From positions 1 through 53,161 of the forward strand of contig JAFTQC010000058.1 of NCBI GenBank assembly GCA_017462965.1: DNA of 53,161 bases, in the 5' to 3' direction. Within the stretch, counting starts at the first letter, position 1. Each line of letters begins with the position of its first letter. Source of the stretch: Clostridia bacterium (lineage in GTDB: Bacteria; Bacillota; Clostridia; TANB77; UBA1234). This document shows positions 38,164 through 41,698 of the stretch, one piece after another. The notes below the pieces were generated by a model. It was not told where the DNA came from. It worked only from the letters and a program-made list of their open reading frames with translations, and searched no databases. A program made the position numbers and the translations under genes.

Positions 38164-38679
38164 ATGAAGAATGTGAAGACTCTGATTGTTGTGGACATGC
38201 AGAAGGATTTCATTGACGGTGCTTTGGGAACGAAGGAAGCTGTCGCGATTGTGGAGAATGTCAAAAGGAAGATTCGCGAGTACTACGAAAATGGTTATCA
38301 AATCATTTTCACTCGTGATACTCACTTTGATGACTATCTGCAGACGAATGAAGGAAAGCATTTGCCGGTCATGCATTGCATCAAAGGTACGGATGGCTGG
38401 CAGATTGCTGAAGGTCTGGAAGTGCCCGGCGCAATTTACATTGACAAGCCTACGTTTGGATATGTGAATTGGAACGAGTTTGAATTGGGCGATGTGGAGC
38501 TTATCGGTCTTTGTACTGATATCTGCGTCGTGTCCAACGCTTTGATTATCAAAGCTCTTTTCCCTGAGAACAATGTTTATGTTGATGCAAGCTGCTGCGC
38601 GGGTGTTACTCCCGAAACGCATAATGCTGCTCTTACGACCATGAAGATGTGTCAGGTCATCGTTAAGGAGGAAAGTTAA
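38164..38679 (+). CDS. pncA: nicotinamidase (isochorismatase fold)
   Basis: Hydrolyses nicotinamide to nicotinate. The 171-aa protein has the triad Asp11 (VVDMQKDF), a Lys in IDKPTFGY and Cys121 in GLCTDICVVSNAL; metal ligands fit TRDTHFDDY. ATG 38164 is used because AAAAGGAG abuts the ATG nine bases earlier. First gene of the NAD operon, 1 bp before the prs-like gene. A related cysteine hydrolase activity cannot be excluded, but the NAD context makes nicotinamidase the best call. GC-rich codon class. Confidence 0.88.
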   Translation: MKNVKTLIVVDMQKDFIDGALGTKEAVAIVENVKRKIREYYENGYQIIFTRDTHFDDYLQTNEGKHLPVMHCIKGTDGWQIAEGLEVPGAIYIDKPTFGYVNWNEFELGDVELIGLCTDICVVSNALIIKALFPENNVYVDASCCAGVTPETHNAALTTMKMCQVIVKEES

Positions 38680-38680
38680 G

Positions 38681-39508
38681 ATGATTAAGCAAAACGGCGT
38701 GGAGCTGAAGCTTGGAAATTTTCCTGATGGGACGCTGCTCATGAAGATGGCTTCGGAAGTTTCTAATGCTTCCGAAGTCGTAATCGAATGGCATTACGAA
38801 AACGACCGAGAGCTCGTCGCTTTGATTTTCCTCGCGAAGCATCTGCGTGCACATGATGTGCAGAAGGTTCATCTGTATATGCCTTACATCCCAAATGCAA
38901 GGCAAGACAGAGTGAAGTCTGCGGAAGATGTGTTCACGCTCAAGTATTTCGCGGAAATCATCAATGGATTGGACTTTAATTCTGTAACTGTTCTCGATCC
39001 ACATTCGAACGTAAGTGAAGCTTTGATTAATCATATCAAAGTTGAGAGCCCCAAGGGATATGTTGAAACGGTCATTCAGAAGATTGCTGATGAAGAAGGC
39101 GAACTTCCGGTGATGTTTTATCCCGATGAGGGCGCGAGCAAACGCTATTCTGGTATGATTGAACTTCCTTACGCTTTCGGTATCAAGAAGCGTGATTGGA
39201 AGAACGGAAAGATTCTTGGCCTGGATGCTGCTGGTGAAGTAGGAGAGATTGCCGGGAAAAATATTCTTATCGTCGATGACATCTGCTCCAAGGGTGGAAC
39301 GTTTTACTATTCTGCCAAGAAGCTGAAAGAACTTGGTGCCAAGAATATTTACCTGTATGTTTCTCATTGTGAGAACAGTATTTTGGAAGGTGATCTTATC
39401 AAAAGTGACCTTCTGAAAAAGGTTTTCACGACTGACAGTATCCTGACGGTAACTCATCCGCTCATCGAAGTTATTAATTGTGGAGGTATGAAAGATGTAC
39501 GATATTAA
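38681..39508 (+). CDS. divergent ribose-phosphate pyrophosphokinase (Prs-like)
   Basis: A 275-aa Prs-like enzyme, about 40 residues shorter than housekeeping PRPP synthases (near 315). Conserved pieces are FPDGT, YMPYIPNARQDR, the DPHS loop and the PRPP-binding NILIVDDICSKGGTF. The regulatory-flag region is altered: VKSAEDVFTLKYF replaces the usual KPREPISAKL type. It overlaps the NAMPT-like gene by 14 bp. It would make PRPP for that enzyme; alternatively it could be the ADP-ribose pyrophosphate synthase (Adps) of NARP1, which is also annotated as Prs. Confidence 0.85.
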   Translation: MIKQNGVELKLGNFPDGTLLMKMASEVSNASEVVIEWHYENDRELVALIFLAKHLRAHDVQKVHLYMPYIPNARQDRVKSAEDVFTLKYFAEIINGLDFNSVTVLDPHSNVSEALINHIKVESPKGYVETVIQKIADEEGELPVMFYPDEGASKRYSGMIELPYAFGIKKRDWKNGKILGLDAAGEVGEIAGKNILIVDDICSKGGTFYYSAKKLKELGAKNIYLYVSHCENSILEGDLIKSDLLKKVFTTDSILTVTHPLIEVINCGGMKDVRY

Positions 39509-40964
39509 TCCGATGCTGCTGTGCGATTTCTACAAGACGGTTCACAGCGATATGATTAACCCTGGAATGACCAAATCGATGTCCTACTATACTCCGCGAA
39601 TGAGCAGAGTGAAGAGATGGGACAAGGTGGTCATGTTTGGTCTTCAGATGTTTTGCAACACCTGGCTCATCAACTATTTCAACAAGAACTTTTTTGAACC
39701 TTCTGAAGAGCAAGTCGTGAAGGAGTACAAGCGAGTGCTGGATGCATCGCTTGCGGAAGGCATCTACGATTACGAGAAAATCAAGAAGCTTCATCGCCTC
39801 GGATATCTGCCGATTGAAATCATCGCCCTGCCTGAAGGAACCAAAGTTCCGATTCATGTGCCGATGTTCGGAATTACGAACACGCATCCTGAATTCGCCT
39901 GGCTTCCTCAGGCACTCGAAAGTTTGATTTCTGCTGAGGTGTGGTATCCTCAGATTACTGCAACTGTTGGCGCAACCTACAGAGAAATCGTCAACAAGTA
40001 TTACGACATGACCTGTGATGACAATATTCCGAGGGCAAAGGCTCTGGGTGCGTTCGACTTCAGAGGTGACGATGGCCTGGACGCTGCACTCAAGGCTGGT
40101 GCTGGTTGGTGCATGTCTTTCCTTAACACTGCGACAGTACCCGTAATTCCGTATCTTGAGAAGAATTTTGGGTGCGATGTTACGAAGGAGCCTGTTGCAT
40201 ACGGCGCAGTTAGCACAGAGCACTTTGTAATGTGCAGCAACTACGCAGTTGATGGTGATGAAATCACTTTCCTGAGAAAGCTTTTGAATGAGTTGTATCC
40301 CAACACGAGTTTCTCCTGCGTGCTCGACAGCTACGATTACTGGAATGTTATTGACAACATCCTGCCCCAGCTTTATGATGACATTATGAAGCATAACGGC
40401 TGCATGCTGATGCGCGGCGATTCCGGTGATTGTGTTGAAGTTGTTACTAAGACGGTTTTCAAGCTTTGGGAACTGTTTGGTGGAACTATCAACAGCAAGG
40501 GTTACAAGGTTTTGGATCCTCATGTCAAAGCAATCTACGGTGACAGCATCACTGTGCAGAGATGCGAGAGAATCTATGAAATCCTCATGGAAAATGGCTT
40601 TGCCTGCAGCAATGTAGTGCTGGGTGTTGGATCTTTCTCCATGCATTGCATCGAGGAAGATGATATTTTAAAGCCGTTCACCAGAGATACCTTCGGTTCT
40701 TGCATCAAGGCCTGCTATGCAGAAGTGAACGGAAAATGTTATCCGATTTTCAAGAATCCCAAGGAAGGTGGATTCAAGAAGAGTCAGAAGGGACTGTGCT
40801 ACGTATTTAGGAATGAGAATGGAGAACTTAAGTACGAAGATGGTTATACTTCTGAAACGATTCCGGAAGGCAACCTGCTCGAAACCGTATTCAAGGATGG
40901 AAAACTCGTGAAGGAATACACGCTTTCTGAAATCAGAAATATTTTGAATGGAGGGAATTTCTAA
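39495..40964 (+). CDS. nicotinamide phosphoribosyltransferase-like enzyme
   Basis: A 489-aa NAMPT/PBEF-type protein; the length matches vertebrate and phage NAMPT rather than bacterial PncB. Signatures are the N-terminal LLCDFYKTVHSDM and YYTPRMSR, the active-site VSTEHFVMCSN, and the PRPP-phosphate loop MRGDSGDCVEV, which differs from the usual RPDSGDP. RBS TGGAGG lies inside the prs-like gene. It joins a pyrophosphoryl-ribosyl donor to nicotinamide. With the adjacent Prs-like partner it could be a PRPP-dependent NAMPT or the NARP1 transferase Namat. It overlaps nadE by one base. Confidence 0.88.
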   Translation: MYDINPMLLCDFYKTVHSDMINPGMTKSMSYYTPRMSRVKRWDKVVMFGLQMFCNTWLINYFNKNFFEPSEEQVVKEYKRVLDASLAEGIYDYEKIKKLHRLGYLPIEIIALPEGTKVPIHVPMFGITNTHPEFAWLPQALESLISAEVWYPQITATVGATYREIVNKYYDMTCDDNIPRAKALGAFDFRGDDGLDAALKAGAGWCMSFLNTATVPVIPYLEKNFGCDVTKEPVAYGAVSTEHFVMCSNYAVDGDEITFLRKLLNELYPNTSFSCVLDSYDYWNVIDNILPQLYDDIMKHNGCMLMRGDSGDCVEVVTKTVFKLWELFGGTINSKGYKVLDPHVKAIYGDSITVQRCERIYEILMENGFACSNVVLGVGSFSMHCIEEDDILKPFTRDTFGSCIKACYAEVNGKCYPIFKNPKEGGFKKSQKGLCYVFRNENGELKYEDGYTSETIPEGNLLETVFKDGKLVKEYTLSEIRNILNGGNF

Positions 40965-41698
40965 TGTTCGATGCGAAAAAAATAAAAGATGAGGTTGTTG
41001 CATGGATAAGGGAGTTTTTTGAAAAGAACGGACCGACCTGCAACGCAATCGTTGGTATTTCTGGAGGAAAGGATAGTAGTATCGTTGCAGCACTTTGCGT
41101 AGAAGCACTTGGCAAGGATCGCGTAATCGGCGTGCTTATGCCATGTGGTGTACAGTCAGATATTCATTATGCAGAGATGCTGGTGAATCACCTGGGAATC
41201 AAGAATTACGTTGTGAATATCGAAGCGGCTGTGAATGGCGTAATCAATAGTATGCCTGAGGGGCTTGATCTTACGAGCCAAACTCTGATCAATTTGCCTC
41301 CGCGCATTCGAATGTCTACGCTTTATGCGGTAAGTCAAAGCTGTAATGGCCGCGTAGCCAACACATGTAATCTTTCTGAAGACTGGGTTGGCTACTCTAC
41401 AAGATATGGTGATTCGGTTGGCGACTTCAGTCCGCTTTCACAGCTTACCGTTACTGAGATCAAAGAAATCGGCAGACTCATTGGACTTCCTGCCGAGCTC
41501 ATCGACAAAGTACCTAGCGACGGTTTGTGTGGCAAAACTGATGAAGACAATCTTGGCTTCACATACGCTGCACTTGACCGTTACATTCGCGAAGGCATTT
41601 GTGAAGACGAAGAAGTGAAGAAAAGAATCGACACGTTGCACGAAAGAAACCTATTCAAGTTACAACTTATGCCTAGCTTCCATTATGAAGCAAAGTAA
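40964..41698 (+). CDS. nadE: NH3-dependent NAD synthetase
   Basis: Amidates nicotinate adenine dinucleotide to NAD. A 244-aa short-form enzyme without a glutaminase domain. The PP-loop is VGISGGKDSS, and the substrate-binding region NTCNLSEDWVGYSTRYGD and PSDGLCGKTDED are canonical. It starts in the upstream stop (TAATG), giving coupled translation. Last gene of the operon, followed by a strong terminator. No nicotinate mononucleotide adenylyltransferase is in the window. Confidence 0.95.
   Translation: MFDAKKIKDEVVAWIREFFEKNGPTCNAIVGISGGKDSSIVAALCVEALGKDRVIGVLMPCGVQSDIHYAEMLVNHLGIKNYVVNIEAAVNGVINSMPEGLDLTSQTLINLPPRIRMSTLYAVSQSCNGRVANTCNLSEDWVGYSTRYGDSVGDFSPLSQLTVTEIKEIGRLIGLPAELIDKVPSDGLCGKTDEDNLGFTYAALDRYIREGICEDEEVKKRIDTLHERNLFKLQLMPSFHYEAK

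Follow-up and report, generated by a model that had tools for sequence, protein, structure and literature searches.

A four-gene operon in the genome of a Clostridia bacterium (assembly GCA_017462965.1, contig JAFTQC010000058.1) quite probably specifies a deamidated variant of the NAD+ reconstitution pathway 1 (NARP1), in which nicotinate (nicotinic acid, vitamin B3) takes the place of nicotinamide. In NARP1, known from phages and in functional form from bacteria (PMC12774641), the enzymes Adps (annotated as Prs) and Namat (annotated as NAMPT) rebuild NAD+ from ADP-ribose and nicotinamide. All coordinates are those of the window, the whole stretch of 53,161 nucleotides (nt) that was analysed; the locus lies on contig C34 of a 2.07-Mb gut genome of the Ruminococcus type. 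The operon occupies the + strand almost without gaps and consists of pncA (38164–38679, open reading frame from 38155), a Prs-like gene (38681–39508, 275 residues), a NAMPT-like gene (39495–40964, 489 residues) that overlaps the former by 14 nt, and nadE (40964–41698). The original prediction had described a short, divergent Prs overlapping a 489-residue NAMPT-like gene, flanked by pncA and nadE and by a regulator of an ADP-ribose-sensing type, and each of these genes was found in its place, the regulator being of the NrtR type. It had hesitated between ordinary salvage dependent on phosphoribosyl pyrophosphate (PRPP) and a host-borne NARP1. NARP1 is favoured by the present analysis, but the operon is probably not a plain copy of it. 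A feature that had escaped the prediction is the replacement of the nicotinamide-binding Asp, which goes with the presence of PncA and NadE throughout the family and argues for a nicotinate-using version.

In Namat, Asp215 binds the amide of nicotinamide, with Ala242 beside it, and the D215A substitution cuts the activity about 8-fold (PMC12774641). Alignments place Ala213 of the NAMPT-like protein (codon 40131–40133, + strand) at the position of this amide contact, which is Asp215 in the Namat of phage SPbetaL1 and Asp219 in human NAMPT, and Ser240 (codon 40212–40214, + strand) at that of Ala242 in the nicotinamide pocket. The occurrence of Asp in NAMPT and Ser in NAPRT at the former position is a published determinant of the choice between nicotinamide and nicotinate (PMC10907753, PMC4442680). 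With the NAPRT of the host, hhalign sets Ala213 on the Ser of a GTSNV motif, in a profile alignment that is weak overall but where the motif is unambiguous by eye.

A total of 199 loci were gathered from phage records, plasmids, IMG/VR contigs and bacterial genomes, positions 215 and 242 not being used as search patterns. The site was readable and fell into an Asp or an Ala/Ser class in 193 of them, and PncA and NadE neighbours were sought within about 6 kb. In the Asp215 class (93/193 loci), residue 242 is Ala in 93/93 and neither PncA nor NadE was found within that distance (0/93). The other class (100/193) has Ala (85) or Ser (15) at position 215 and Ser at position 242 in 100/100; both PncA and NadE are present in 82 of these loci and one of them in 14 more, giving 96 with at least one. 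When only loci with adequate flanks are considered, PncA and/or NadE accompany 82 of 82 Ala/Ser-type enzymes (74 with both) versus none of 71 Asp-type enzymes. A motif check beside the Asp-type enzymes uncovered no missed PncA or NadE, only one unrelated SGGxDS string. What these data establish is the gene content, the homology, the residue states and the conservation of the linkage in phages and bacteria.

This pattern bears on the possibility of a host-borne NARP1 of the known type, in which the ligase would use nicotinamide and make NAD+ directly, while pncA and nadE would be other NAD genes placed under a shared regulator. Membership of the Namat clade and the Adps-like partner, both described below, would suit this explanation, and a nicotinamide-using bacterial NARP1 has been proven in Paenibacillus foliorum (PMC12774641). 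It is nevertheless unlikely: the amide-binding Asp, the loss of which is so costly to Namat, is absent; both pocket residues shift along with the PncA/NadE linkage, phages included; and the nicotinamidase of the same operon would consume the nicotinamide substrate.

The NAMPT-like protein (Pfam NAPRTase and NAMPT_N) has the crystallised SPbetaL1 Namat (9w5x/9w5w) as its best match in the PDB, with 385 bits versus about 160 for human NAMPT. Its AlphaFold model (predicted local distance difference test score, pLDDT, of 94.7) superimposes onto Namat with a Z-score of 46.8 and a root-mean-square deviation (r.m.s.d.) of 1.5, and onto human NAMPT with a Z-score of about 42 and an r.m.s.d. of 2.1, at 28% identity. 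In trees, it is nested in the Namat (NARP1) clade with SPbetaL1 Namat, and a fully supported branch (100/100) sets classical NAMPT apart. The equivalent of F392 is present and that of Asp219 is gone, which is not the state of classical NAMPT; an RB43-type NAMPT (347 bits to Xcc NAMPT) falls outside the Namat clade. Nor is the protein a NAPRT (PncB). Its sole NCBIfam match, NF006629 (PRK09198), is titled 'nicotinate phosphoribosyltransferase' yet matches NAMPT-like proteins, and the true NAPRT of the host is encoded on another contig.

The preference of Namat for ADP-ribose pyrophosphate (ADPR-PP) comes from an adenine selectivity clamp formed by aromatic residues at positions 392 and 396 and the loop stacking residue R40 (PMC12774641). 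R38 (R40 in Namat), F381 (F392) and T396, R397 and D398 (T398, R399 and D400) are kept in the Namat-like protein. In the clamp region GSFSMHCIEEDDILKPFTRD (40629–40688, + strand), which contains F381 and the TRD motif according to the alignments and the model, an insertion spanning residues 385–394 is predicted by AlphaFold to form a β-hairpin at the place expected for Namat Y396. The MRGDSGD loop was correctly reported by the original prediction as departing from the usual motif; it is a family trait, as Pro (Pro307 in Namat) is replaced there by Gly in 79 of 100 related enzymes.

The Prs-like protein (Pfam Pribosyltran and Pribosyltran_N) is predicted to be an Adps-like ADP-ribose pyrophosphokinase. 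It is 43% identical to SPbetaL1 Adps (180 bits), whereas its identity to the canonical Prs that the host encodes on a different contig is 23% (55 bits). With TIGR01251 it scores 120 bits and the canonical Prs 337 bits, in agreement with its description as divergent. Its phosphate loop, DDICSKGGTF, is close to those of Adps enzymes such as DDLSSFGGTF, the host Prs having DDEIDTAGSI, and the ribose-5-phosphate loop DxxDTxxT/S of PRPP synthetases is absent. The gene that adjoins the Namat-like gene is Adps-like and, with its CSKGGT loop, distinct from PRPP synthetase. A phylogeny had been suggested as a check, and the position of the NAMPT-like protein away from classical NAMPT, together with the Adps-type loop of its partner, argues against ordinary salvage. 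The combination of an ordinary Prs and a classical NAMPT is ruled out by the tree, the phosphate loop and the clamp.

Several points weigh against the proposed nicotinate-using NARP1. The PncA and NadE models were built from linked copies, and divergent relatives near Asp-type enzymes could be missed. The Ala/Ser enzymes form one clade, perhaps two: a tree computed without the trait columns requires a single Asp-to-Ala/Ser change (support 79/89), and a smaller, differently sampled tree allows one or two. The match between residues and genes therefore represents one or two events followed by long conservation, not 100 cases; the 193 loci were not retained as independent evidence, and the Fisher value is descriptive only. 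A degree of independence is nevertheless provided by the gene partners, as the order of the genes varies among phages and the Ala-type loci L036–L038, from other Oscillospirales, have a 643-residue glutamine-dependent NadE and a distant 310-residue isochorismatase-like protein in place of the short forms. Since this NadE is of a different type, the set of genes came together, or was put together anew, on at least two occasions. PncA and NadE also serve ordinary salvage, and the only NadE of the genome, which resides in this operon, would be needed anyway. Because of the insertion, no residue of the Namat-like protein clearly corresponds to the clamp tyrosine Y396. The NadV of H. ducreyi (HdNadV), solved with nicotinamide mononucleotide (NMN), sits inside the Namat clade, so that clade membership alone does not prove the use of ADPR-PP and was dropped as sole proof. 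HdNadV (L233, plasmid pNAD1, 2959–4446) has lost R40 and F392, no Adps adjoins it on its plasmid, and it looks like a Namat that has turned back into a NAMPT. Finally, human NAMPT, with its Asp219, was crystallised with nicotinic acid and with nicotinate mononucleotide (NaMN) (6ta0, 6ta2), and Asp219 is thus not an absolute gate. These structures, along with the small and neutral character of Ala, would be compatible with a mixed-substrate module for NAD repair, in which the ligase takes both nicotinate and nicotinamide and PncA and NadE merely broaden the substrate supply. The strict association of gene linkage with the Asp-to-Ala/Ser and Ala-to-Ser changes points to a genuine switch, and such a module is very improbable.

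In ordinary salvage of the Preiss–Handler type, the Prs-like protein would make PRPP, the NAMPT-like protein would join it with nicotinate into NaMN, a NadD encoded elsewhere would produce nicotinate adenine dinucleotide (NaAD), and NadE would complete the synthesis of NAD+. Namat retains a side activity with PRPP (PMC12774641), NadD-like and PncB-like genes are present in the genome, and HdNadV provides the example of a relative solved with NMN. This scheme is judged quite unlikely, as the phosphate loop is that of Adps and not the DxxxT of PRPP synthetases, the genome already has a canonical Prs and a NAPRT, no NadD is found in the operon or in the phage versions, and the clamp residues F392 and R40 that HdNadV has lost are kept here.

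The gene set of the proposed deamidated NARP1 also occurs in gut and rumen phages. Gut phage Phass-1, which uses genetic code 15, has the order nicotinamidase-Prs-NAMPT-x-NadE, and MT835544, a fecal phage record, has the set as well, as do many IMG/VR contigs. The gene order varies among phages. A scan of viral contigs with the single Phass-1 sequence gave no matches. Among the phage proteins encoded next to the operon are a tail sheath (in L105), a DNA polymerase of phage type (in L049) and a clamp loader (in L066). The commonest additional neighbour of Namat is a macrodomain gene, present in 52 loci, 38 of them of the Ala/Ser type, and often inserted directly between the namat-like gene and nadE; NADAR genes accompany Namats in 10 loci. 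Macrodomain and NADAR families handle ADP-ribose, and their presence fits ADP-ribose, rather than ribose-5-phosphate, as the feedstock, which these neighbours could supply. A search of the surveyed loci with the NadD of the host returned no NadD-like neighbour; a NadR-type gene occurs in three. Two further neighbours were observed. A family of phosphatases of about 135 residues, HAD-like by eye and with no Pfam match, stands directly beside namat in 17 loci, many of them phage (e.g. L113 7899–8294, L017 7555–7971). In the IMG/VR contig L101, a protein of the Sir2 family (3259–3996; Pfam SIR2, 191 bits) is encoded upstream of a Ser-type operon, at a distance of about 650 nt.

The order of the reactions, the preference for nicotinate and the control by ADP-ribose are proposed from sequence. 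Cleavage of NAD+ would release ADP-ribose and nicotinamide, and PncA would convert the latter to nicotinate. From ADP-ribose and ATP, the Adps-like enzyme would form ADPR-PP, which the Namat-like enzyme would combine with nicotinate to yield NaAD directly. Amidation of NaAD by NadE would restore NAD+. The loop would thereby be closed from both products of the NADase, through a branch that needs neither an NaMN step nor NadD. The NrtR-type repressor would probably free the promoter once ADP-ribose accumulates. The pncA and nadE genes would then probably be parts of the pathway and not flanking salvage genes.

The PncA-like nicotinamidase is identified by PF00857 (Isochorismatase, 92 bits, 5e-26) and is predicted to convert nicotinamide to nicotinate. 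With numbering from 38155, its catalytic triad consists of D14, K98 and C124 and its metal ligands are D55, H57 and H74; all are kept across 86 linked PncAs, with one gap at C124. NadE (PF02540 NAD_synthase, 170 bits, 5e-50) is predicted to convert NaAD to NAD+. Strong purifying selection acts on the operon: against its 96%-identical sister operon in the sister genome, the ratios of nonsynonymous to synonymous substitution rates (dN/dS) are 0.025–0.069, the lowest value, 0.025, being that of the NAMPT-like gene. Given this selection and the recurrence of the gene set in other bacteria and in phages, the four genes are no chance grouping. Close relatives in public genomes are found in Ruminococcus and other Oscillospirales and Lachnospirales gut bacteria, including R. 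albus 8.

A search of the host genome returned the NadE of the operon as the sole true match, and NadA was not found there. NAPRT (PncB-like) and NadD-like genes are present along with the canonical Prs. Given the absence of NadA, the NAPRT and NadD-like genes and the location of the only recognisable NadE, the operon probably also has a role in core NAD salvage. NadD-like matches with identical scores on contigs C61 and C73 may reflect a duplication or a binning artefact. No convincing NadE was seen in the near-complete genomes of two genus-mates (G020 and G034), so that members of the genus differ strongly in NAD synthesis. NAD-depleting defence genes, for which a search had been recommended, are represented by a single TIR protein, which PADLOC matches to SpbK (220 bits) and which is encoded next to a BsuBI/PstI-type (type II) restriction endonuclease (L228 895–3049, G000:C64); this TIR protein is a possible local source of NAD+ cleavage. 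Searches of the host genome for SIR2_2 and Macro found none.

Upstream of pncA lies a promoter, TTGACA-17-TATAAT (37983–38011, + strand), that matches the consensus at 12 of 12 positions. Its spacer contains the palindrome CTGTTATTAACAG (37990–38002), a candidate NrtR operator. The exact copy occurs once in the window, and a related element, TTTGTTATTAACAGAATTATAATAACAAA, occupies the equivalent place in the sister genome L020. Conservation of CTGTTANTAACAG as an operator in all relatives was rejected, since the exact copy is present only in the window and other NrtR-led operons carry palindromes of their own. The regulator gene (41871–42689, − strand) is convergent to the operon and encodes a Nudix domain and a winged helix (PF00293 NUDIX, 44 bits; PF21906 NrtR_WHD, 56 bits). 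Both matches are above the cut-off and that to the NF050029 equivalog is below it; the Nudix box is degenerate in the alignment. As NrtR proteins of other bacteria let go of DNA upon binding ADP-ribose (PMC6800001), the substrate of the proposed pathway may induce the operon. In the Persicobacter plasmid L133 (4300–7467), an Adps/Namat pair of the Asp type is accompanied by an NrtR-like gene of its own, but not by pncA or nadE, and represents a bacterial nicotinamide-type NARP1 under similar control.

The gap between nadE and nrtR is just 172 nt in the window. A terminator-like hairpin with a near-palindromic stem lies 3' of nadE (41703–41728, seen on the − strand), and a 42-nt inverted repeat, 86% complementary and without spacer, spans 41748–41831, beside two ordinary hairpins. 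In L020, the interval from nadE to nrtR (7565–8592) contains a gene that resembles PnuC by eye and a shortened gene of the NadR kind (CTP_transf and AAA_28). Directly upstream of the operon, a sigma-factor gene, SigK-like by eye (37262–37973), is split in two frames (37262–37705 and 37671–37973), which may be due to a frameshift, an assembly error or an interrupted gene; another gene takes its place in L020. There is no sign that the window is a prophage: the neighbours read as bacterial without a search having been made (sugar transferase, sodium:amino-acid symporter, sigma factor, ABC-type genes).

We consider it likely that phages and gut bacteria share a widespread route from ADP-ribose and nicotinamide to NAD+ through nicotinate and NaAD, with two pocket changes having turned Namat into a new ADPR-pyrophosphate:nicotinate ADP-ribosyl transferase and PncA and NadE being its obligate partners. 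A literature search, which did not cover the original 2024 NARP1 paper (Nature), retrieved no report of a nicotinate NARP1, of NaAD as a direct product or of PncA/NadE partners. To our knowledge, no described route makes NaAD directly from ADP-ribose. If correct, the proposal would add a second chemistry for NAD+ reconstitution, by direct formation of NaAD, and would explain how phages rebuild NAD+ after NADase defence in nicotinamidase-rich hosts, where free nicotinamide is soon deamidated. The question of what chromosomal NARP1 copies do would become directly testable, with one active-site prediction. It would also call for caution before such genes are labelled simply Prs and NAMPT, or simply NARP1.

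The operon shares with the NARP1 of phage SPbetaL1 and P. foliorum an Adps-like and Namat-like pair, overlapping genes, the clamp residues R40, F392, T398, R399 and D400, and the catalytic His and Arg; chromosomal copies are known there too (PMC12774641). It differs by the changes of Asp215 to Ala, Ala242 to Ser and Pro307 to Gly, by the insertion that replaces the Y396 region, and by its fixed partners PncA and NadE and its NrtR-type regulator. The fold and the catalytic core are common to NAMPT and NadV, in which there is no Adps-like partner, the clamp aromatic F392 is Gly in the classical NAMPT and Asp219 is retained. NAPRT (PncB) resembles the operon enzyme in that the amide is faced by a residue that is small and not acidic (Ser in NAPRT and in the S-type members), and in the base, nicotinate, that the operon enzyme is proposed to use; it belongs to another subfamily, with only remote matches, and its donor is PRPP, unlike the proposed ADPR-PP. 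As in NrtR-regulated NAD salvage operons, NrtR adjoins pncA and nadE and the NAD genes share one promoter, but here the Adps/Namat-like pair replaces pncB/nadD or nadV/nadM.

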